Below the pieces are notes generated by a model. That model searched no databases. It saw only the letters and a list, made by a program, of their open reading frames with translations, and was not told where the DNA came from. Position numbers and translations under genes: made by a program. Shown piece after piece: positions 53,710 to 64,000 of a stretch of 64,000 bases of DNA (positions are counted from its first letter, which is position 1; each line of letters opens with the position of its first letter). Source of the DNA: Gammaproteobacteria bacterium (GTDB lineage: Bacteria > Pseudomonadota > Gammaproteobacteria > Thiohalomonadales > Thiohalomonadaceae); contig QKED01000012.1 of the NCBI GenBank assembly GCA_003252455.1, forward strand, positions 124,001 through 188,000, written 5' to 3'.

Positions 53710-54201
53710 ATGAGAATCACAATGAGCCTTGCCACCCCGTATCGTCCTCTTTTTGGGCTTCTGTTCGTCCTCATATTCAGCGCCGCGGCCCAGGCCGAGG
53801 TGAGCGCCAGCCTAGTGGCGAACAAGGTCGAGACAGACCCCCAGGGCCAGGAGCGTCTGCTCCCCGCCGAGCGGGCCACCCCGGGTGACCTCATCGAATA
53901 TGTGGTGCTCTATCACAATCAGGGGGAGGAGACGGTGCGTGATCTGCGCGCCGATCTGCCCATCCCCGCGGGCGTCGAGCTGCAGCTCGACAGCATCGAG
54001 CCCAAGCGCCGCCTGGAGGCGAGCGTGGACGGCCAGGCCTACGCCCCCTTCCCCCTGAAACGTACTCACACCCTCCCGGACGGGCGGGTGGAGGAGCAGA
54101 TGGTCCCGGCCTCCGAGTACCGCCATCTGCGTTGGACCCTCTTCAGCTTGCAAGCCGGCGAGCAGAAGCGGGTCAAGGCCCGGGTCAAGGTCTCGGAGTG
54201 A
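53710..54201 (+). CDS. Small secreted DUF11-like protein
   Basis: The 163-residue protein has a signal peptide (hydrophobic LFGLLFVLIFSAAAQA, cleaved near residue 29). A single Ig-like DUF11-type domain follows (ERATPGDLIEYVVLYHNQGE, DLPIPAGVELQLDSIEPKRR). ATG 53722 is an alternative start. It is the first gene of the surface cluster. One DUF11 unit secreted separately could be a chaperone, cap or minor subunit for the large repeat protein two genes on; this is inferred. Confidence 0.75.
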   Translation: MRITMSLATPYRPLFGLLFVLIFSAAAQAEVSASLVANKVETDPQGQERLLPAERATPGDLIEYVVLYHNQGEETVRDLRADLPIPAGVELQLDSIEPKRRLEASVDGQAYAPFPLKRTHTLPDGRVEEQMVPASEYRHLRWTLFSLQAGEQKRVKARVKVSE

Positions 54202-54343
54202 CCGTCAACCGTGGCAATCAGGAGGAGCGCTTGCAACATGAACCGCCACCTCTCGTGGAAGGCCGTCCTTCCTGCACGGCATTGACGGTCTTCCTGCATC
54301 GCCTTTCTTTCCCAACCCCAGTGCAACATTAGAGGAGTCAACC

Positions 54344-57082
54344 ATGACCAATCCTTTGCACACTAGCGCAACTCGCCGTCGTGCGGGCGCGAACAGTCTG
54401 TTCGCCCTCCTCGGTAGCGCAGTCGCCGGACTGGCCCTGCTGTTCAGCATGCAGGCCGGTGCTGCCGCCCCCGAGGCCGGCAGTATCATTGGTAACCAGG
54501 CATCCGCCACCTACGTCGACGCCGGCGGCGTCACGCGTACCGCGACCTCTAACCGGGTCGATACCATCGTCGACAGCGTCTACGGCCTGACCCTGACCGC
54601 CGACGGCACCAAGTACGCCGCCCCCGGCGCGCAGGTCACCTTCCCGCACACCCTGACCAACACCGGTAACACCGAGGACAGCTACACACTGTCCGCGGCC
54701 GATGGCGGCAGCGCGGTGACCCTCACCAACGTCAAGATCTACGAGGACTTGAACGGTGACGGTACCCCGGACAACTTCGTCAACCTGAACGGCACCAACG
54801 TCACCGTGGCCTATGGCGGCAACTACAAGTTCGTCATCGTCGGCACCGTGCCCGGTACCGCCACTGGCGGCAGCTCCGGCTCACTGACCATCGACGCCAC
54901 CAGCGTCGGCGACGGTGCCCAGACCGCCTCCAACACCGACACCATCCACGTCTCCGACGACGCAGTGATCGGCGTGGTCAAGTCCATGAGCGCCACCAGC
55001 GGTGAGTCCCCCAGCGGCCCCTACACCGTGACCCTGGCCTACACCAACACCGGTAACAACACCGCCACCGACCTGAGCATCACCGACTCTCTGCCTGCTG
55101 GCATGAGCTACGTGGCCAGCACCGGTGTGTGGAGTGTCGGCGGTGCCACCCTGACCGACGCCAGCGACGTCGAGGCCGCCACCGGTATCACCTATACCTC
55201 CTCCGGCAACGTCATCGTCGCGGTCATCGCCAGCGTCGCCCCCGGCGACTCCGGTACCGTCAGCTTCCAGGTGACCATCGACGGCGGTCTCGCCCCGCAG
55301 ACCCTCGACAACAAGGGTGTCTTCACCTTCGACCCGGATGGCGCTGGCCCGACTGGCACCACCCCGAACACCGACACCAACATCGTCACCTTCACCGTCA
55401 TCCCGACCGCCGCTGTCACCATCTCTGACACCGGTGCAACCGACACCCTGGCCGACTCCGATACCGACCTGACGCTCAACGACATCTCCCTGATCGCCTC
55501 CGCCCAAGAGGGTTCCACGGTGATCTTCCAGAACGTCGTCACCAACACCGGTAGCGGCACCGACACCTTCAACATCACCGTGGCCAACACCAGCTTCCCC
55601 GCTGGCACCACCTTCGTGCTGTTGAAGAGCGACGGCGTCACCCCGCTGGCCGATACCGATGGCGACAACGTGCTGGATACCGGCCCCCTGGCCGCTAGCG
55701 GCGTCTACAACATCTTCGTGAAGGCGATCCTGCCGCCGGATTCGGCTACCGCCGTGCCCTCCGACGCCACCGTCACCGCCACCTCCAGCAACACCCCTGG
55801 CGTGAGTGACACCGTGGTCGATCGCATCACCGAGATCACCGCCAGCACCGTCGACCTGACCAACAACGTCTCCCTCGCTGGCGGCGCTGTGGCCACTGAC
55901 GGTTCCGGTGTACAGGCCACGGGTGAGGCACTCGCCATCACCACCCTGAGTGTGACCCCGAGCAACGCCACCAACACCGCCACCTTCGTACTGTTCGTCA
56001 ACAACACCAGCTCACTGGGCGACAGCTACGAGTTGAAGGCCAGCACCGACAACACCTTCGGCACCATCACCCTGCCCACCGGCTGGAGCGTCAAGTTCTA
56101 TGTCGACGCAGACGGTACCGACGGCGGTGCAGACGGCGTCATGGATGCCGGCGTGACCCAGTCCACCAGCACCGGCGCCATCCTGAGCAGCGCCAACAAG
56201 CTGGTCTGGGCCGTGGTCTCCATCCCGCAGAACTTCTCTGCCGGCACCTACGACATCTACTTCCGCGCCCAGTCCCCCAGCACCGGGGCCACCGACGTGA
56301 AGCACGATGCCGTGACCGTGGAGACCATCCGCGCCATCAGTCTCGCCCCGAGCAACTCCGGTCAGGTCTACCCCGGTGGTTCCGTGGTCTACCAGCACAC
56401 CCTGAAGAACGCCGGTAACGCCACCGAGACCACCATCAACCTCTCCAGCACCGACAGCAAGCTGGCCGATGGTTGGTCCTCCGTGATCTACGAGGACACC
56501 GATGGTAGCGGTGACCTGAGCGCCAGCGACCTGGTCATCTCCAGCGTCAGCAACCTCGGCGCGGGCGTCAGCAAGACCCTGTTCGTCAAGGTCTTCGCCC
56601 CGGCCGGTGCCCTGGAAGGCGTGGTCGACACCACCACCCTGGATGCCGATGCCGGCGGCGGTATCACCGCCACCGTCAACGACACCACCACGGTGATCGT
56701 CGGCGACCTGACCCTGACCAAGAAGCAGGGTCTCGACCTCAACTGCGACGGTGACACCGCCGACGCGGGCGAGATCGCCTTCCGCACCACCCAGATCAGC
56801 AGTGGCGCCGTCCCCGGCTCCTGCCTGCTGTATCAGATCACCGCCGCTAACTCCGGTATCGACCCGATCACCACCGTGGTCGTGAATGACGCTACCCCGT
56901 CCTTCACCACCTACGAGCTGAGCGGTAGTGCCGGGACCTGCAGCGGTGGTGCCACCACCAGCGTGGGCACCATCACCGCCAGCCCGGCGGACGGTGGTGT
57001 GGGTACCATCACGGCCACCGTGGGTACCCTGGCCGCTGGCTCCAGCGCCGTGATCGAGTTCTGCGTGCAGATCGATCAGTAA
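54344..57082 (+). CDS. Large DUF11-type repeat surface protein with calcium-loop motifs
   Basis: The 912-residue exported protein has signal peptide residues 1-40 (LLFSMQAGAAA|PEAG). The mature part is Thr/Ser/Asp/Gly-rich beta-sandwich repeats: DUF11-like units around 190-270 (YTVTLAYTNTGNNTATDLSI) and 790-912, with related units between. Acidic loops recur: YEDLNGDGTPD, DTDGDNVLDTG, DADGTDGGADGVMD, DTDGSGDLSASD, LNCDGDTADAGE. They resemble Ca-binding DxDxDG loops. Cysteines occur only in the last 150 residues. An AGGAG site, strongly biased codons and a following terminator suggest high expression. A 15-codon leader frame (54238-54285) with GGAGGAG precedes it. Probably an S-layer-like or fimbrial subunit. 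Confidence 0.8.
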   Translation: MTNPLHTSATRRRAGANSLFALLGSAVAGLALLFSMQAGAAAPEAGSIIGNQASATYVDAGGVTRTATSNRVDTIVDSVYGLTLTADGTKYAAPGAQVTFPHTLTNTGNTEDSYTLSAADGGSAVTLTNVKIYEDLNGDGTPDNFVNLNGTNVTVAYGGNYKFVIVGTVPGTATGGSSGSLTIDATSVGDGAQTASNTDTIHVSDDAVIGVVKSMSATSGESPSGPYTVTLAYTNTGNNTATDLSITDSLPAGMSYVASTGVWSVGGATLTDASDVEAATGITYTSSGNVIVAVIASVAPGDSGTVSFQVTIDGGLAPQTLDNKGVFTFDPDGAGPTGTTPNTDTNIVTFTVIPTAAVTISDTGATDTLADSDTDLTLNDISLIASAQEGSTVIFQNVVTNTGSGTDTFNITVANTSFPAGTTFVLLKSDGVTPLADTDGDNVLDTGPLAASGVYNIFVKAILPPDSATAVPSDATVTATSSNTPGVSDTVVDRITEITASTVDLTNNVSLAGGAVATDGSGVQATGEALAITTLSVTPSNATNTATFVLFVNNTSSLGDSYELKASTDNTFGTITLPTGWSVKFYVDADGTDGGADGVMDAGVTQSTSTGAILSSANKLVWAVVSIPQNFSAGTYDIYFRAQSPSTGATDVKHDAVTVETIRAISLAPSNSGQVYPGGSVVYQHTLKNAGNATETTINLSSTDSKLADGWSSVIYEDTDGSGDLSASDLVISSVSNLGAGVSKTLFVKVFAPAGALEGVVDTTTLDADAGGGITATVNDTTTVIVGDLTLTKKQGLDLNCDGDTADAGEIAFRTTQISSGAVPGSCLLYQITAANSGIDPITTVVVNDATPSFTTYELSGSAGTCSGGATTSVGTITASPADGGVGTITATVGTLAAGSSAVIEFCVQIDQ

Positions 57083-57099
57083 GGCCTAGGGCCAAGAGG

Positions 57100-57121
57100 G
57101 GAGGGGGCTTCGGCCCCCTCC
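57100..57121 (+). terminator. Partial terminator between the two large surface genes
   Basis: GGAGGGGGC / GCCCCCTCC stem with a TTCG tetraloop, 18 bp after the stop codon, without an immediate U-tract (a T8 run comes 27 bp later). Likely lowers expression of the downstream giant gene relative to the subunit gene. Confidence 0.7.
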
Positions 57122-57212
57122 GCTCAACCAGACCCCGACGCCGACAAATTTTTTTTGAGCAAATTTTCCGGGCCTGTCCCGAACTGAAATCAAACGATAG
57201 TTGCAACCCATA

Positions 57213-60200
57213 ATGCCTAGCTTGCGCCAAACAGTGATGTTGCTTGCCGGACTCCTCCTCGCGGGGTGGAGTCTGCTCGGCATGGCGGTGGCACCGGACG
57301 CCGGTACAGCTATCACCAATACTGTGACTGCCAACTACGTGACCGGCGATGGCCGCCTGCGTAGCGCCAGTAGCAACACCGTCTCCGCCACCAGCGGTGA
57401 CCAGATCGCCTTCAGCCTGGTCGAGGATATCGAGCGCAATGTCGCCCCCGGCCAGGTAGTGGTGCTCTCGCACATCTTCACCAACGAGGGCAACGGCGAG
57501 CTGCCCATCGGTTTCGAGCTGGTCAACCTCACCGGTGACGGCTTCGACCTCGACGCCCTCCAGCTCTTCTACGACAACAACGACAACGGCGTGGTCGACA
57601 CCACCGACGACGAGTTGCCACTGGTGCAGTTGGCCGACGGCATCCTCGTCAGCCTGCCGCCTGGGGCCACCGTCGGTGACCTACCCGACCGTGCCGTCGC
57701 CGCCTCCATCCCCGCCACCCCGCTCAGCGGCGGCGGCCTCAACGTCACCCGTGGCGGGCGCATCCCGGTGCTGGTGCAGGGGCGTGTGCCCGTCGCCGCC
57801 CCGCTCGGCAGCGTCGGCCAGCTACGCATCAGCGCCCGCAGTGCCGATGGCACCCTGCGCGAGAGCAATGTCGACAGCCTGACCATCTCCTCCGGCTCCT
57901 CCCTGAGCCTGAGCAAGGCCGCCTCGACCACCGAGATCTCGCGCAACGAGCTGCTCACGTACACCCTGCAACTGACCAACAACGGCATCGGCACGGCCGG
58001 TCCGGTCGATGTGGTGATCGACGGGGTGGCGGTGCAGAAGCTGGTGATCCGTGACCAGATCCCGGCCAACACCACCTACGAACCGCTGGACCCGCCTGCC
58101 GGGCAGCTATTCCTGGTGCACCGCTACGGCGACCCGACCAACACCTACGTCACCTACGACAACCGCCCGGCGGACGACACCCAGGTCGACGTGGTGGCGC
58201 TGGCCATCGACTCGCTCGCCTCGCGCGCCACGGTCGCCTTCAGCTTCGCCGTGCGCGTCCACGGCAATGCCAGCGGCACCATCGAGAACGTCGCCCTGGC
58301 CCACTACAGTGACGGGGGCGTGGTCTCGGTGCTGGAGGCCTACTCCAACCAGGTGGTCACCGAGGTGCCGCTCATCGAGCCGGTGATCCACTACTACTAC
58401 AACAACCAGTTCGGCACCCTGGTGGACCACGCCATCCTCGGCGACCCGCTCTATGTCGCCACCGACGCCGCCAGTTGTAACGAAAACCCGGTGGTGATCG
58501 AGAAGAAGACCATCATCATCACCTCCACCATGACCGGTGACGAGGAGACCTTCATCGCCACCGAGACCGGCCCCAATACCGGTATCTTCCGCATCGTCCC
58601 GACCGACGCCCCCAACTACGTACCGACCCAGGATGCCACCCTGACCAACGGCGCGATCATCGGCAACTCAGTGATCGAGACCCTGCGCAACGACACCCTC
58701 ACCGCCACCGTCGACGGTTGCGGCACCAGCGTGGTGAAGACGCGCATCCTGGTCGACCCCACCGGCGTGGTCTACGACACCTGCAAGGATGTGCCGGTAC
58801 CCGACGCCGTGGTGAGTCTGGTGGACGCCGTCAGCGGCGCCCCGGCCCAGGTGTTCGAGCTGGACGCCGTGACCCCGGCGGCCAACGTGGTCACCGTGGG
58901 TAACGATGGCGTCTACCTCTTCCCGCTGGTCAACCCGGGCACCTACCGCCTGGAGGTGGTGCCGCCCACCGGCTTCACCTACCCCTCCACCGTGCCGGTG
59001 GCACAGCAACCGGCCACGCGCATCATCAATGTGCCCGCCTCGTTCGGTGGTGACTTCCCGGTCAACCTCAACACCGGCGCCGTGGTCGCCGACATCCCGG
59101 TCGACTGCACCGCACACGGCTCGCTGTTCATCCGCAAGAGCGCCTCGGTGAGCACAGTGGAGGTGGGCGAGAGCCTGCTCTACACCGTCGAGGTGAAGAA
59201 CACCGGCGACTATGCCCTGTTCAACGTCAAGCTCGACGACACCCTGCCGCTCGGTTTCAGCTACCTCCCCGGCAGCGCCAAGGAGAACGGCAGCACCATC
59301 GCCGACCCCGACGGCAGCGCCGGCCCGGCCCTCACCTTCAGCCTGAGTAACCTGGCCGTGGGCGCCACCGCGACGCTGACCTACCGCGTGCGCGTAGGCA
59401 CCGCCGCCCTGCGCGGCGATGGCGTCAACACCGCCATCGCCCGTGCCCAGGAGACCCTCATCGCTACCCGCGACAAGGTGAGTAACACCGCCACCGCCAA
59501 GGTCGAGGTGACCCCTGGCGTGTTCGCCGACGACGGCTATCTGGTGGGCAAGGTCTTCACCGACTGCAACCGCAACCGCGTGCAGGACAAAGAGGAGCTG
59601 GGCATCCCCGGCGTGCGCCTCTATCTCGACGACGGCACCTACGTGGTCACCGACGTCGAGGGTAAGTACAGCCTCTACGGCCTGCGCCCGCGCACCCACG
59701 TGATCAAGCTCGACCGTACCACGCTGCCCCCTGAGGCGGAGCTGATTACCCTCGACAACCGCCACGCCGGGGTCCCCGACAGCCGCTTCGTCGACCTGCG
59801 CAAGGGCGAGCTGCACCGCGCCGACTTCGCCGAGGGGAGCTGCAACGCCGAGCTCATCTCGCAGGTGAAGCTGCGTCGCAGCAAGGGCGAGATCGACGTC
59901 CACGAGTACTACCTCAACCAGGAGCTGCCCCTCGACCCGACCCTGCCGCAGCAGCGTCGCGTGCAGGACCTCCCGGCCCAGGGCGTGCTCGACGGCGACA
60001 AGTTCCCCGGCTATCAGGAGCTGCTGCCCGAACAGCAGTACAACGCGATTAACAGCCAACTGCCCGAGGCGCCGGTAGTGGTGCCCGTGGTGCCGGCCGA
60101 GAGCTTCGAGAAGAAGCTCCCCAACACCAGCATCGAGCCCGGCTTCCTCGACCTCGAAGAGGGCGACCTGCTCGCCGGGCGTGAGGCGACCATTCGCGTC

Positions 60201-63176
60201 AAGGGTCTGGCAGGGGCGCAGTTCCGCCTGCTGGTCAACGGCGCGGCGGTCGACGAAGAGCGCATCGGTAACCGCGCCACCCAGCCGAGCCGTCAGTTGC
60301 AGGGCTGGGAGTACGTGGGCGTGAAGCTCGCCGCCGGGGCCAACCGGCTGGAGTTCCAGCAACTCGATAACTGGGGCAACGTGCGTGGCGGTCAGGCGAT
60401 CACCGTCTACGCCCCCGGCGAGCCGGTGGGCTTCGCCGTCGACCTGCCCAAGGAGACCCCGGCGGATGGCAACAGCCCGGTGCGCGTGCGCATCCGCCTG
60501 GTCGATGCCAACGGCAACCTGGTGGCCATGCGCCTGCCGGTGAGCGTCGAGTCCAAGCTCGGGCGCTGGAAGGGCACCGACCTCGACGAGGTCGAGCCGG
60601 GCCTGCAGCAGTTCATCGAAAACGGTCAGCTGGAGCTGAGCCTGTTGCCGCCCCAAGAGCCGGGCGAGGAGACCCTGCGCATCCTCAGCGGGCGCATGGA
60701 GAAGCAGGTGAAGTTCGGTTACACCGCGCCGCTGCGCGAGATGATCGCCGTGGGTATCATCGAGGGTCAGATCCGCCTCGACCGCCTGCTCCCCGGCGCC
60801 GTGGTGCAGCCCACGGTGAACGACAGCTTCGAGGAGGAGCTGCGCAACTACAGCTACGAGTCCGACGACGGCGAGACCCGCGCCGGGGCGCGCGCCTCCT
60901 TCTTCCTCAAGGGCAAGGTCAAGGGCGAGTACCTGCTGACCATGGCCTACGACTCGGACAAGGCCGAGCAGAGCCGTCTGTTCCGCGATATCCAGCCCGA
61001 GGAGTACTACCCGGTCTACGGCGACAGCTCCATCCGCGGCTTCGACGCGCAGACCACCAGCCCGCTCTACCTGCGTGTGGAGAAGGGGCGCACCTACCTG
61101 CTCTACGGTGACTACAACAGCCGCATCCCCTCCGAGGCGCGTAAGCTGGGCAACTACCAGCGCAGCCTCACCGGCCTGCGCCTGCACCACGAAGACGACG
61201 GCCTGCTCATCGACACCTTCGTCAGCCAGGACAACACCACCCAGGTGGTGGACGAGATCCGTGGTCAGGGCATCTCCGGCCCCTACCGCCTGAGCAACGC
61301 CGACGTGGTGGTCAACAGCGAGCAGGTGGAGATCCTGGTGCGCGACCGTCAGCAGCCCTCGATCATCCTCTCGCGCACCAGCATGACCCGCTTTACCGAC
61401 TACGAGATCGACGGTATGAGCGGCGGTATCCTGTTCCGCACCCCAGTGGCCAGCGTCGACGAGAAGCTCAACCCCGTCTCCATCCGCGTCACCTACGAGG
61501 TGGAGCAGGGCGGTGATGACTTCCTCGTCGCCGGTGCCACCGTGCAGAAGCAGTTCGGCGGCCTGCTCGAAGTGGGCGGCACCTATGTGCACGACGAGAA
61601 CCCGACCCAGTCCTACCGCCTGCGCAGCGCCAATGCCACCTTGAAGCTCGACGAGCAGACCAACCTGGTGGTCGAGGGGGCCCAGAGCCAGGAGGAGGGC
61701 ACCGGTGAGGGCGACGCCCGGCGCGTGGAGTTGATCCACAAGGGCGAGCGCACCGACCTGCGCCTCTACGCCAGCGACATCGACGTGGAGTTCGTCAACC
61801 CCGGTGCCTCGCTCTCCGCCGGGCGGCGTGAGGCCGGGGCCAAGGGTGGCTTCCGTCTGAGCGAGAAGCTGCAGTTCACCGGCGAGGTGCTGCGCAGCGA
61901 AGACCTCACCACCGGTGGGGTCCGCGACGGCGCCAACCTGCAGATGCACACCCGCCTCACCGACAACCTCACCTGGATGGCCGGCGTGCGCCGTGCCCGC
62001 GAGAGCACCACCCCGGCCCTCAGCACCAGCGTCGCCACCCCCATCGACCAGACCAGCATCCAGACCGGCATCGACTACCGTCTGCCGATGCTGCCGGAGC
62101 TGAGTCTCTCGGTGGAGTACGAGCAGGCCATCGACGACGCCACCAAGGAGATGGCCGCCATCGGCGCCGAGTATCAGTTCAGCCCGCGTGGCCGCCTCTA
62201 CGCCCGCCACGAGTTGATCTCCAGCCTCAACGACGCCTACGGCCTGAACAACCGCGCCAGCCTGGTGACCAGCGTCATCGGCCTGCGCAACGACTACTCC
62301 GATACCGGTTCGGTGTTCAGCGAGTACCGTGCCCGCGACGCCTTCGAGGGGCGCGAGACCGAGGCCGCTATCGGTCTGCGTAACCGCTGGCCGCTGCGCA
62401 AGGGGCTGATGCTGGAGACCGGCCTGGAGCGCGTACAGCCGCTGGATGGCGACCCGGACAACCTGACCAACGCCATCACCGGCGCCATCAGCTACACCGC
62501 CAACCCGCTGTGGAAGGGCACGGCGCGCCTCGAAGTGCGTACCGCCAACAACAACGACTCGCTGCTCTCGACCCTGGGCGTGGCGCGCAAGATGAACCGC
62601 GACTGGACCCTGCTCGGCAACAACCACTACTACGTGCAGCGCCTCGCCACCGGCGACCTGACCCGCGACCGCTTCCAGCTCGGCGTCGCCTACCGTGACA
62701 CCGACACCAACATCTGGCACGGCTTCAGCAAGTACGAGCTGCGCAGCACCGACGACGAGACGGTGGGTGACAAGCGTCTGGCGCACATCGTCTCGCTGCA
62801 CGCCAACCGTGCCATCCTCGACAGCATGTACCTGAGCGGGCGCTTCGCCACCAAGTGGGTGCAAGAGAGTGCCAACGACGGCTTCGAAGATACCTACAGC
62901 GCACAGCTGTTGAGCACCCGCTATATCTGGGACTTCACCGAGCGCTGGGACTTCAACCTCACCGCCGCGACCCTCTACAGCGCCGCCGACAAGAGCACCG
63001 AGTATGGCCTCGGCGTCGAGCTGGGCTACCTGCTGCACGCCAACCTCTGGCTCTCCGGTGGGTACAATGTGTTCGGTTACCAGGACGAGGAGCTCTCCGG
63101 CGAGGGCTACACCCAGCGTGGCGCCTATCTGCGCCTGCGCTTCAAGTTTGACGAGACCCTGTTCGATCGCCCCTGA
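57213..63176 (+). CDS. Giant outer-membrane protein: DUF11 and SdrD-B domains plus C-terminal barrel
   Basis: The product has 1987 residues from ATG 57213; a TTG four codons earlier is possible. Signal peptide to about residue 28 (LLAGLLLAGWSLLGMAVA). An N-terminal beta-sandwich with a FYDNNDNGVVDTTDDE loop resembles the neighbour's repeats. DUF11-type units sit near 230-390 and 635-765 (TVEVGESLLYTVEVKNTGDY). A carboxypeptidase/SdrD-B-like unit lies at 775-850 (GKVFTDCNRNRVQDKEELGI). A linker and an Ig-like part follow. From about 1175 to the end, strands alternate like a large beta-barrel, closing with RGAYLRLRFKFDETLF. Probably an outer-membrane anchor or secretion pore for the 912-residue protein. 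No name known to me. Confidence 0.78.
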   Translation: MPSLRQTVMLLAGLLLAGWSLLGMAVAPDAGTAITNTVTANYVTGDGRLRSASSNTVSATSGDQIAFSLVEDIERNVAPGQVVVLSHIFTNEGNGELPIGFELVNLTGDGFDLDALQLFYDNNDNGVVDTTDDELPLVQLADGILVSLPPGATVGDLPDRAVAASIPATPLSGGGLNVTRGGRIPVLVQGRVPVAAPLGSVGQLRISARSADGTLRESNVDSLTISSGSSLSLSKAASTTEISRNELLTYTLQLTNNGIGTAGPVDVVIDGVAVQKLVIRDQIPANTTYEPLDPPAGQLFLVHRYGDPTNTYVTYDNRPADDTQVDVVALAIDSLASRATVAFSFAVRVHGNASGTIENVALAHYSDGGVVSVLEAYSNQVVTEVPLIEPVIHYYYNNQFGTLVDHAILGDPLYVATDAASCNENPVVIEKKTIIITSTMTGDEETFIATETGPNTGIFRIVPTDAPNYVPTQDATLTNGAIIGNSVIETLRNDTLTATVDGCGTSVVKTRILVDPTGVVYDTCKDVPVPDAVVSLVDAVSGAPAQVFELDAVTPAANVVTVGNDGVYLFPLVNPGTYRLEVVPPTGFTYPSTVPVAQQPATRIINVPASFGGDFPVNLNTGAVVADIPVDCTAHGSLFIRKSASVSTVEVGESLLYTVEVKNTGDYALFNVKLDDTLPLGFSYLPGSAKENGSTIADPDGSAGPALTFSLSNLAVGATATLTYRVRVGTAALRGDGVNTAIARAQETLIATRDKVSNTATAKVEVTPGVFADDGYLVGKVFTDCNRNRVQDKEELGIPGVRLYLDDGTYVVTDVEGKYSLYGLRPRTHVIKLDRTTLPPEAELITLDNRHAGVPDSRFVDLRKGELHRADFAEGSCNAELISQVKLRRSKGEIDVHEYYLNQELPLDPTLPQQRRVQDLPAQGVLDGDKFPGYQELLPEQQYNAINSQLPEAPVVVPVVPAESFEKKLPNTSIEPGFLDLEEGDLLAGREATIRVKGLAGAQFRLLVNGAAVDEERIGNRATQPSRQLQGWEYVGVKLAAGANRLEFQQLDNWGNVRGGQAITVYAPGEPVGFAVDLPKETPADGNSPVRVRIRLVDANGNLVAMRLPVSVESKLGRWKGTDLDEVEPGLQQFIENGQLELSLLPPQEPGEETLRILSGRMEKQVKFGYTAPLREMIAVGIIEGQIRLDRLLPGAVVQPTVNDSFEEELRNYSYESDDGETRAGARASFFLKGKVKGEYLLTMAYDSDKAEQSRLFRDIQPEEYYPVYGDSSIRGFDAQTTSPLYLRVEKGRTYLLYGDYNSRIPSEARKLGNYQRSLTGLRLHHEDDGLLIDTFVSQDNTTQVVDEIRGQGISGPYRLSNADVVVNSEQVEILVRDRQQPSIILSRTSMTRFTDYEIDGMSGGILFRTPVASVDEKLNPVSIRVTYEVEQGGDDFLVAGATVQKQFGGLLEVGGTYVHDENPTQSYRLRSANATLKLDEQTNLVVEGAQSQEEGTGEGDARRVELIHKGERTDLRLYASDIDVEFVNPGASLSAGRREAGAKGGFRLSEKLQFTGEVLRSEDLTTGGVRDGANLQMHTRLTDNLTWMAGVRRARESTTPALSTSVATPIDQTSIQTGIDYRLPMLPELSLSVEYEQAIDDATKEMAAIGAEYQFSPRGRLYARHELISSLNDAYGLNNRASLVTSVIGLRNDYSDTGSVFSEYRARDAFEGRETEAAIGLRNRWPLRKGLMLETGLERVQPLDGDPDNLTNAITGAISYTANPLWKGTARLEVRTANNNDSLLSTLGVARKMNRDWTLLGNNHYYVQRLATGDLTRDRFQLGVAYRDTDTNIWHGFSKYELRSTDDETVGDKRLAHIVSLHANRAILDSMYLSGRFATKWVQESANDGFEDTYSAQLLSTRYIWDFTERWDFNLTAATLYSAADKSTEYGLGVELGYLLHANLWLSGGYNVFGYQDEELSGEGYTQRGAYLRLRFKFDETLFDRP

Positions 63177-63205
63177 GGCTGTTTCGATAACGAGGACCTA
63201 GAGTG

Positions 63206-64000
63206 ATGAAAGCAAACAGCCTGTCGAGCGCCATCCTGTTGGCCCTGGCCTGCACCGCCTGCTCCGTGACCCCGGAGCACGAGCCGCAACCGAGCGTCAT
63301 CGTCGAGATCGATGGCGAGGCGGTCGGTTCGGCCGGGCTCAAGCCCGAGCAGGCGCGCATCACCGACGAGGCGATCTACGCCGACGTGAGCGTCCTCGAC
63401 CGCATCCAGGAGCGTATCAAGCGCCTCAACAGCGAGGGGCTGCGCTCTGCCTTCGACTACCACTTCACCAAGGCGCAGCACTGGCTCGACTTCGCCCGCG
63501 ACGAGTACAGCGAGAACGACCGCTACCGCGTCATCGAGGGGGCGGTGAATCAGACACTGATCCTGGTTGGCGAGATGGAGGAGGAGAAGTCCGACATCAG
63601 CATGGACACCCCGCTGGTGCCGGGTTCGATCCGCGTGCGTGAGGACCTGTGGCAGAAGGCCGCCGAGATGAAGCAGCACCCCGGTTTCCGCTGCGCCCAG
63701 CACCTCATCGCCGAGTTCGAGGTGCGCCTGGTGCAGGCGGGCCACGAGGAGTGGGAGATGGGCTGGCGCCACTCGCTCTCCGACATCCGCGCCGTGGAGC
63801 GTCTGGTCAAGGAGGCGGAGATCGAGCTGGCGCGCTGTGCCATCGAGGCGGAGGAGCCGGTCACCAACCGCTTCACCATCGCCTACTTCGACTTCGACCT
63901 GGACGACCCCAAGTCCGAGACGGCGCAGGAGATCCAGCGCCTGATGGATATCATCGCCTCCATGGACGCGGTCATCTCCATCGACATCTTCGGTCACACC
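63206..64000 (+). CDS. OmpA-type lipoprotein, cut by the window end
   Basis: 265 codons are visible. A lipoprotein signal (MKANSLSSAILLALACTAC) offers C16 or C19 as the lipidated Cys. A long helical region follows (about 45-210: RIQERIKRLNSEGLRSAFDY, ALSDIRAVERLVKE type). From about residue 225 an OmpA-like peptidoglycan-binding domain begins (FTIAYFDFDLDDPKSETAQE, then AVISIDIFGHT) and runs off the end. A GAGGA site lies upstream. Its place directly after the giant barrel gene suggests it tethers the complex to peptidoglycan. Confidence 0.85.
   Translation, partial: MKANSLSSAILLALACTACSVTPEHEPQPSVIVEIDGEAVGSAGLKPEQARITDEAIYADVSVLDRIQERIKRLNSEGLRSAFDYHFTKAQHWLDFARDEYSENDRYRVIEGAVNQTLILVGEMEEEKSDISMDTPLVPGSIRVREDLWQKAAEMKQHPGFRCAQHLIAEFEVRLVQAGHEEWEMGWRHSLSDIRAVERLVKEAEIELARCAIEAEEPVTNRFTIAYFDFDLDDPKSETAQEIQRLMDIIASMDAVISIDIFGHT

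Follow-up and report, generated by a model that had tools for sequence, protein, structure and literature searches.

In chaperone-usher pili (FimA-H, FimD/PapC), the incomplete Ig-like domain of one subunit is completed by the N-terminal strand of its neighbour, the tip subunit acts as an acceptor only, and an outer-membrane barrel stands at the base. The usher barrel has 24 strands, and the polarity of type 1 pili runs tip-to-base. In the archaeal thread filament Saci_0406, the N-terminal tail of a subunit lies in the head of the previous one, and an intermolecular isopeptide bond, from an N-terminal Asp to an Asn two subunits away, is reported in the part of PMC9715654 on which we draw. Type 9 secretion employs a giant barrel together with cargo proteins that have a common C-terminal Ig-like domain, according to the portion of PMC10994853 used here. 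Finally, the DUF11 domain, renamed CLIPPER, can hold a Lys-Asn isopeptide bond with an Asp nearby, as described in the sections of PMC12617251 that we cite, which also present a CLIPPER fibrillar adhesin of Acinetobacter silvestris (PDB 9IFR) with a Lys-Asp-Asn isopeptide and an OmpA-like anchor.

Here we analyse a locus of a gammaproteobacterium of the Thiohalomonadaceae, contained for the most part in a window of 64,000 nucleotides, the whole stretch of DNA under study. By analogy, chaperone-usher pili and the archaeal thread come closest to it in the way they work. At the level of its sequence, the candidate subunit g2 combines an incomplete Ig-like domain with an N-terminal donor strand, as a chaperone-usher subunit does, the domain being DUF11 and not pilin; its N-terminal tail and C-terminal head also recall the thread subunit. 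With type 9 secretion the locus shares a giant barrel and a common C-terminal Ig-like domain, and with the A. silvestris adhesin the domain family, the Lys-Asp-Asn residues and an OmpA-like part. A description of this gene set was not found in searches of the open-access literature.

Results

A conserved gene set

Four consecutive plus-strand genes are all found where the first-pass annotation had placed them (53710-64000), the last of them leaving the window. The first, g1 (53710-54201, 163 aa), encodes a small secreted protein made of a single DUF11 head that lacks its last strands and has no tail. It is followed by g2 (54344-57082, 912 aa), a candidate fibre subunit with an N-terminal tail, several Ig/DUF11 domains and a C-terminal head; by g3 (57213-63176, 1987 aa), in which an N-terminal tail, two DUF11 domains, CarboxypepD_reg/SdrD_B-like domains and an Ig-like pair precede a predicted C-terminal barrel; and by g4 (63206 to about 64273, the window ending at 64000), a 355-aa lipoprotein with an N-terminal helical domain and a C-terminal OmpA domain.

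When named genomes were searched with the barrel, 246 confirmed relatives were obtained, and the best 80 of these 246 were used for counts. By BLAST, g1 is present in 69 of the 80 and g4 in 53, and an ORF of at least 500 aa stands immediately 5' of g3 in 69, three of these ORFs (L068, L111 and L120) not being g2. Of the 11 loci without g1, six or seven are short of sequence on the upstream side, and the rest are amply flanked. The order g1-g2-g3-g4 is that of most loci among those listed, including Acinetobacter, Alkanindiges, Gallionella and others, and the barrel relatives belong to Acinetobacter, Psychrobacter, Alkanindiges, Gallionella, Burkholderiales and other lineages. Because g1 and g4 accompany the barrel this often among its best 80 relatives, the four genes are a real conserved gene set and not a chance neighbourhood; the co-occurrence elsewhere on which the first-pass annotation had staked its reading is thus found. 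Closer to the window, a barrel match occurs in 9 of the 39 genomes around its own (that genome included). Relative L034 keeps g1- and g2-like genes 5' of the barrel, and relative L035 a g4-like gene 3' of it. In the latter, the barrel gene itself (L035:2-2663) is broken into two frames, by mutation or sequencing error.

Directly downstream of g4 and outside the window lies a further gene, g5 (window coordinate 64338 onward; L004:13339-15606), of which 756 aa, SpaA-like repeats included, are encoded before the contig ends. Another contig of the same genome, C96, starts inside a 1752-aa open frame (L159:2-5257) with SpaA-like repeats and the same C-terminal domain, and judging by these shared parts this frame is probably the rest of g5. 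As we read it, g5 encodes a giant secreted protein with SpaA-like repeats, SdrD_B and a C-terminal DUF11 head, apparently halved by an assembly gap. Tip-like proteins of 958-971 aa are also seen 3' of g3/g4 in L097, L099, L109, L115, L122 and L139, where they share an N-terminal 'QRSFVNL' segment; this part bears no Pfam name in the two proteins scanned (L097 and L122) and is possibly a binding domain. Elsewhere, open frames of 8290-8346 codons (G000:C56 and C44) have weak DUF11 matches, and a stand-alone g1 relative (L161:4278-4796) is found near an ORF that we take to be TamB-like.

DUF11 domains end early at the gene boundaries

In Pfam the DUF11 match is clear in g3, just over the cut-off in g2 and weak in g1 (E 0.099, below the cut-off), and DUF11/B_ant_repeat are the sole families that Pfam and NCBIfam scans return for g2. 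The DUF11 labels given in the first-pass annotation therefore stand for g3 and, narrowly, for g2, while that of g1, weak in Pfam, is nevertheless supported by a purpose-built model of the full domain, which has 126 positions and derives from 66 domains in giant proteins that do not belong to the g1-g4 set. By this model, the C-terminal DUF11 of g2, located at the protein end, stops at position 87-95 of 126 in 61 of 61 proteins; the internal DUF11 domains of the same g2 proteins extend to at least position 100 in 79 of 85 cases. The match of the window g1 ends at position 90 of 126, one residue short of the C-terminus, and 67 of 69 g1 relatives match the model, nearly all with ends at 89-100, around 90. 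In the g5-like proteins (n = 21) the match likewise stops near position 90. Given that DUF11 ends near position 90 in g1, g2 and g5, all three end where the last two DUF11 strands should start. The head of the window g2 (56705-57079, residues 788-912) is such a DUF11 without its last two strands, and its Lys793 and Asp849 are conserved.

In a distant barrel clade (L036-L040), a giant DUF11/SdrD_B protein is followed by a barrel protein, the same parts being coupled differently. None of the adjoining giant DUF11 proteins in this clade has a head at its end (0/5), and the rule of the split domain is therefore one of the nearer clade and not of all such barrels. OmpA domains are predicted in L038, the sole member of L036-L040 scanned; in L037-L040, three repeats can be made out by eye.

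g2 and g3 carry the complementary end

In both g2 and g3, the signal peptide is directly followed by a segment of the type AGSIIGNQASATY...ATSNRV, which we call the tail. In the window it spans 54467-54571 of g2 (residues ~42-76, with a conserved Asn51), where it represents the DUF11 end absent from heads, and 57291-57395 of g3 (residues ~27-61, with Asn36). The motif is present in 65 of 70 g2 and 57 of 81 g3 proteins (window included) versus 6 of 1042 other ORFs, and a looser pattern in 74 of 80 g3 proteins versus 158 of 964 controls. All g2 rows without the motif were counted as misses, namely L068, L111 and L120 with a different neighbour, L075 with a split frame and L103 with a variant motif. 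The tail is present in 1 of 69 g1 proteins and absent from the g5-like proteins (0/12); of 14 such proteins listed, L102 and L107, which do have a tail, were counted as second copies of g2 instead, and the start taken for L091 is probably too far upstream, its N-terminus being uncertain. A short tail HMM of 36 positions is weak on its own, matching 16 of 69 g2 and 6 of 80 g3 proteins at E<0.01; in the window it gives g2 an E of 0.026 and misses g3, and its five other matches below 0.01 are the g2 of L110 and four ORFs that start inside a gene cut by the locus edge.

On profile comparison, the g2 tails fall at DUF11 positions 92-126 (E 2.3e-4); for the g3 tails the positions are 93-127 (E 2.7e-4). 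For neither set did any of 100 column shuffles reach the observed score. The C-termini of g2 and g1 align to DUF11 12-93 and 13-93, respectively. As the tails correspond to DUF11 92-127 while these C-termini correspond to about 12-93, head and tail are two parts of one domain. On the sequence evidence, gene boundaries split one DUF11 domain between neighbouring proteins at one fixed position, which we consider a new finding. The domain pairing suggested by the first-pass annotation came near to this arrangement, which can now be put more sharply as one DUF11 divided between neighbours; that the two parts also pair between proteins is what we infer from it. In the window's own genome, a further protein with a tail-like start (TTILNVVHVYYQ...) runs off the end of contig C24 (L160:3503-4663) and is possibly another g2.

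The isopeptide triad is divided between head and tail

The residues of the isopeptide triad were followed in an alignment of 43 g2 proteins, numbered after the Achromatium protein. The internal g2 DUF11 has the Lys, Asp and Asn of DUF11 (CLIPPER) in one domain, and thus in cis, with Lys212 in at least 90% of the proteins and Asp246 and Asn315 invariant. The triad of the terminal domain is split: Lys370 (at least 90%) and Asp422 (invariant) belong to the head, and the Asn, Asn51 (invariant), sits on the tail, at the opposite end of the chain. With Lys and Asp conserved in the g2 head and Asn in the tail, the joint between the two may become a covalent isopeptide bond. At the Asp position, g1 has Leu in 67 of 70 proteins; because g1 lacks this Asp, its joint would not be covalent by the Lys-Asp-Asn mechanism, and g1 may be a non-covalent partner. 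Conservation of the head Lys was taken from the alignments rather than from a script count (g2 56/62, g5 14/21, g1 6/18), the loose pattern of which missed visible lysines.

A proposed fibre and the relative amount of g2

With moderate confidence, we interpret the locus as encoding a surface fibre that is assembled when split DUF11 (CLIPPER) domains are completed by donor-strand complementation. The tail of g2 would be the donor, contributing the last DUF11 strands, and its head the acceptor that lacks them; because g2 starts with donor strands and ends with an acceptor DUF11, g2 subunits could join head to tail, possibly through a covalent isopeptide bond. As a head-only protein, g5 is the likely tip adhesin, and g1, also head only, would serve as a cap or assembly partner. 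The base would be g3, with its tail and giant barrel, which is probably the exit pore too, and g4 would tie this base to the peptidoglycan. The chain would then run from g5 or g1 (head only) through g2 (tail and head) to g3 (tail and barrel), with the barrel protein as the last donor, and would follow the same polarity as type 1 pili.

The same division of DUF11 could also belong to a fixed, non-polymeric chain, in which operon order mirrors a single complex: the g1 or g5 head on the g2 tail, the g2 head on the g3 tail, the barrel as anchor and g2 as a stalk present once per barrel. Both boundaries (g1/g2 and g2/g3) do cut DUF11 at the same place and in the same order, and g2 is large and multi-domain, more stalk-like than pilin-like. 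Codon bias gives no sign of g2 excess either, ENC being 29.3 for g2 versus 28.5 for g3 and 28.7 for purL; it was rejected as a sign of high g2 expression, and the description of g2 as highly expressed in the first-pass annotation loses this support. However, g2 has both tail and head, which allows homopolymers, a second tail-plus-head protein is present in some Psychrobacter loci (L102 and L107), and hairpins of at least 10 bp, which lie between g2 and g3 in 50 of 55 relatives, point to an excess of g2 over g3. We therefore regard a fixed chain as unlikely.

The window has one such hairpin 3' of g2 (about 57097-57126; 12 bp with a TTCG loop), the strength of which is matched by 15 of 200 shuffles and is not unusual alone. 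It had earlier been taken for a partial terminator that fixes the stoichiometry of subunit over anchor, a claim that finds no support here: no T-run follows it directly, and with a hairpin and T-run in just 2 of 56 intergenic regions a terminator between g2 and g3 was rejected. The conserved hairpins may still favour g2 over g3.

Model of a short g2

A 496-aa g2 relative was modelled with a pLDDT of 77.6 and a pTM of 0.68. Its tail is predicted confidently (pLDDT 94-96), as is most of the head, which a disordered linker precedes. All 50 structure matches listed begin at residue 77 or beyond, those to domain 1 spanning 77-80 to 202-204. The tail therefore lies outside domain 1, and in the predicted structure the head is the sole domain short of strands.

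The confident tail in a single-chain model is, by itself, also what in-chain packing would give. One could accordingly suppose that the strands at the N-terminus complete a domain within the same polypeptide, that the C-terminal DUF11 is a shorter but complete variant, and that no pairing between subunits takes place. This we find improbable, given that the match of domain 1 to complete Ig folds, from residue 77 on, does not involve the tail and that none of the other complete domains is short of a strand. In DUF11 numbering, moreover, the tail corresponds to what the head is missing, the Asn lying in the former and the Lys and Asp in the latter, and there are tails without a head (g3) as well as heads without a tail (g1 and g5).

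The predicted barrel of g3

An AlphaFold2 model of g3 residues 994-1987, based on an alignment of 45 sequences, reached moderate confidence (mean pLDDT 75, pTM 0.57). It contains the Ig-like domain pair (60192-60731 in the window), which lies 5' of the barrel part, and then a predicted giant beta-barrel (60897-63149) of about 36 strands. Clearest are the 32 strands from model residue 428 (g3 residue 1421) onward; the prediction is poor at residues 198-295. Structure prediction hence bears out the C-terminal barrel claimed by the first-pass annotation, with low confidence in its first part. Between early strands, a possible plug-like insertion (61263-61475, model residues 358-428) may be present, a stretch that is spanned by the usher alignments.

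The top Foldseek matches of the model are a Deinococcus envelope barrel (SDBC/SlpA) and the type 9 protein SprA, with low TM-scores. The SprA barrel has 36 strands. A second structure aligner places FimD/PapC ushers first (Z up to 16.1 over 329 residues, model 291-744), with porins at 14.2. When the barrel profile was compared with six E. coli K-12 ushers by hhalign, the probability was 1.9% and no barrel alignment was obtained. Usher homology was rejected as kinship because this profile comparison found nothing, and was kept as a structural likeness. Among the 25 Pfam families listed, of 29 obtained for 45 barrel proteins, none covers the whole barrel, and there is no Autotransporter or intimin barrel and no SprA; the Ig-like part is matched by Big_1 in 24 of the 45 and by Invasin_D3 in 21. 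A sequence search of solved structures with the barrel profile gave glycosidase Ig-domain matches only (best E 0.0026).

The OmpA domain, separate or fused

The g4 product has an OmpA domain (PF00691, E 1.8e-15) and, read by eye, the sequence LACTAC, presumably a lipobox, in line with the OmpA lipoprotein of the first-pass annotation. An OmpA domain is present in 6 of 10 g4 proteins scanned and missing in 4, and this part of g4 appears from the sequences to be optional. In L006, L034 and L038 OmpA is found inside the barrel protein, with a separate g4 at the window locus; such fusions indicate that the OmpA part and the barrel act together. In two of them (L006 257-357, L034 807-909) it follows the N-terminal domains and precedes the barrel, which would make the base periplasmic and let the fibre exit via the pore. 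The four-gene picture drawn earlier was therefore incomplete, since a tip-like fifth gene lies outside the window, OmpA is optional and, in relatives, OmpA resides in the barrel protein. The L006 protein (L006:3526-11849), which has its OmpA domain inside, is a second barrel protein of the window's own genome, encoded on contig C116, and adjoins a 1359-aa protein with 8x DUF11 that also ends in a head-like DUF11.

An outer membrane-peptidoglycan scaffold, its parts staying periplasmic as a mechanical link with nothing displayed, would suit the OmpA domain in g4 and, in relatives, next to the barrel, as well as the Deinococcus large-barrel envelope complex (SDBC/SlpA) among the top Foldseek matches, but is highly improbable given that OmpA is absent from 4 of 10 g4 proteins scanned, that the SpaA/SdrD_B/DUF11 stalk domains and the varied N-terminal domains of g5-like proteins fit adhesins, and that DUF11 is reported mostly in surface stalks in the part of PMC12617251 cited here.

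Discussion

A fibre assembled from split DUF11 domains would differ in several ways from each of the systems that it resembles. Chaperone-usher pili and this locus are alike in that FimD/PapC give the best structural alignments of the g3 barrel, yet that barrel has no profile similarity to the six K-12 ushers, about 36 strands are predicted instead of 24, and base and barrel are united in one protein. The subunits here are multi-domain, with DUF11 rather than the pilin fold and possibly a covalent joint. In addition, Pfam scans of the g1-g4 products and the g5 pieces named no PapD-like chaperone. Compared with g2, the subunits of the Saci_0406 thread are single-domain and archaeal, and work without a barrel, as far as the cited part of PMC9715654 describes them. 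The bond of the A. silvestris adhesin lies within one domain of one chain, and a split domain, a barrel partner and an operon are not described in the sections of PMC12617251 used here.

Type 9 secretion offers SprA among the top Foldseek matches. In contrast, the present locus lies outside Bacteroidota, and its C-terminal domain is an incomplete DUF11 with a matching tail. Pfam and NCBIfam scans found no T9SS sorting domain in g2. A T9SS-like sorting signal was considered for the C-terminal domain common to g2 and g5 and was rejected, as the complementary tails explain this domain better. The head may also be an export signal.

Tentatively, the mechanism could be taken a step further, to a Gram-negative surface fibre of a new class. 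Split isopeptide domains would click the fibre together covalently, without sortase or PapD-like chaperone, as it leaves through a barrel whose own N-terminus acts as the last donor, and the exit pore would at the same time be the base, tied down by g4. SpyTag/SpyCatcher is the engineered counterpart of such split isopeptide pairs. The fibre reading predicts that tail peptide and head domain join, perhaps covalently, and natural split isopeptide pairs of this kind would be useful protein-joining tools.

If true, the locus would represent a widespread and so far undescribed route of surface-fibre assembly, with no sequence kinship to known pilus systems, and would account for many proteins that are named just DUF11 or OmpA-family in domain libraries.
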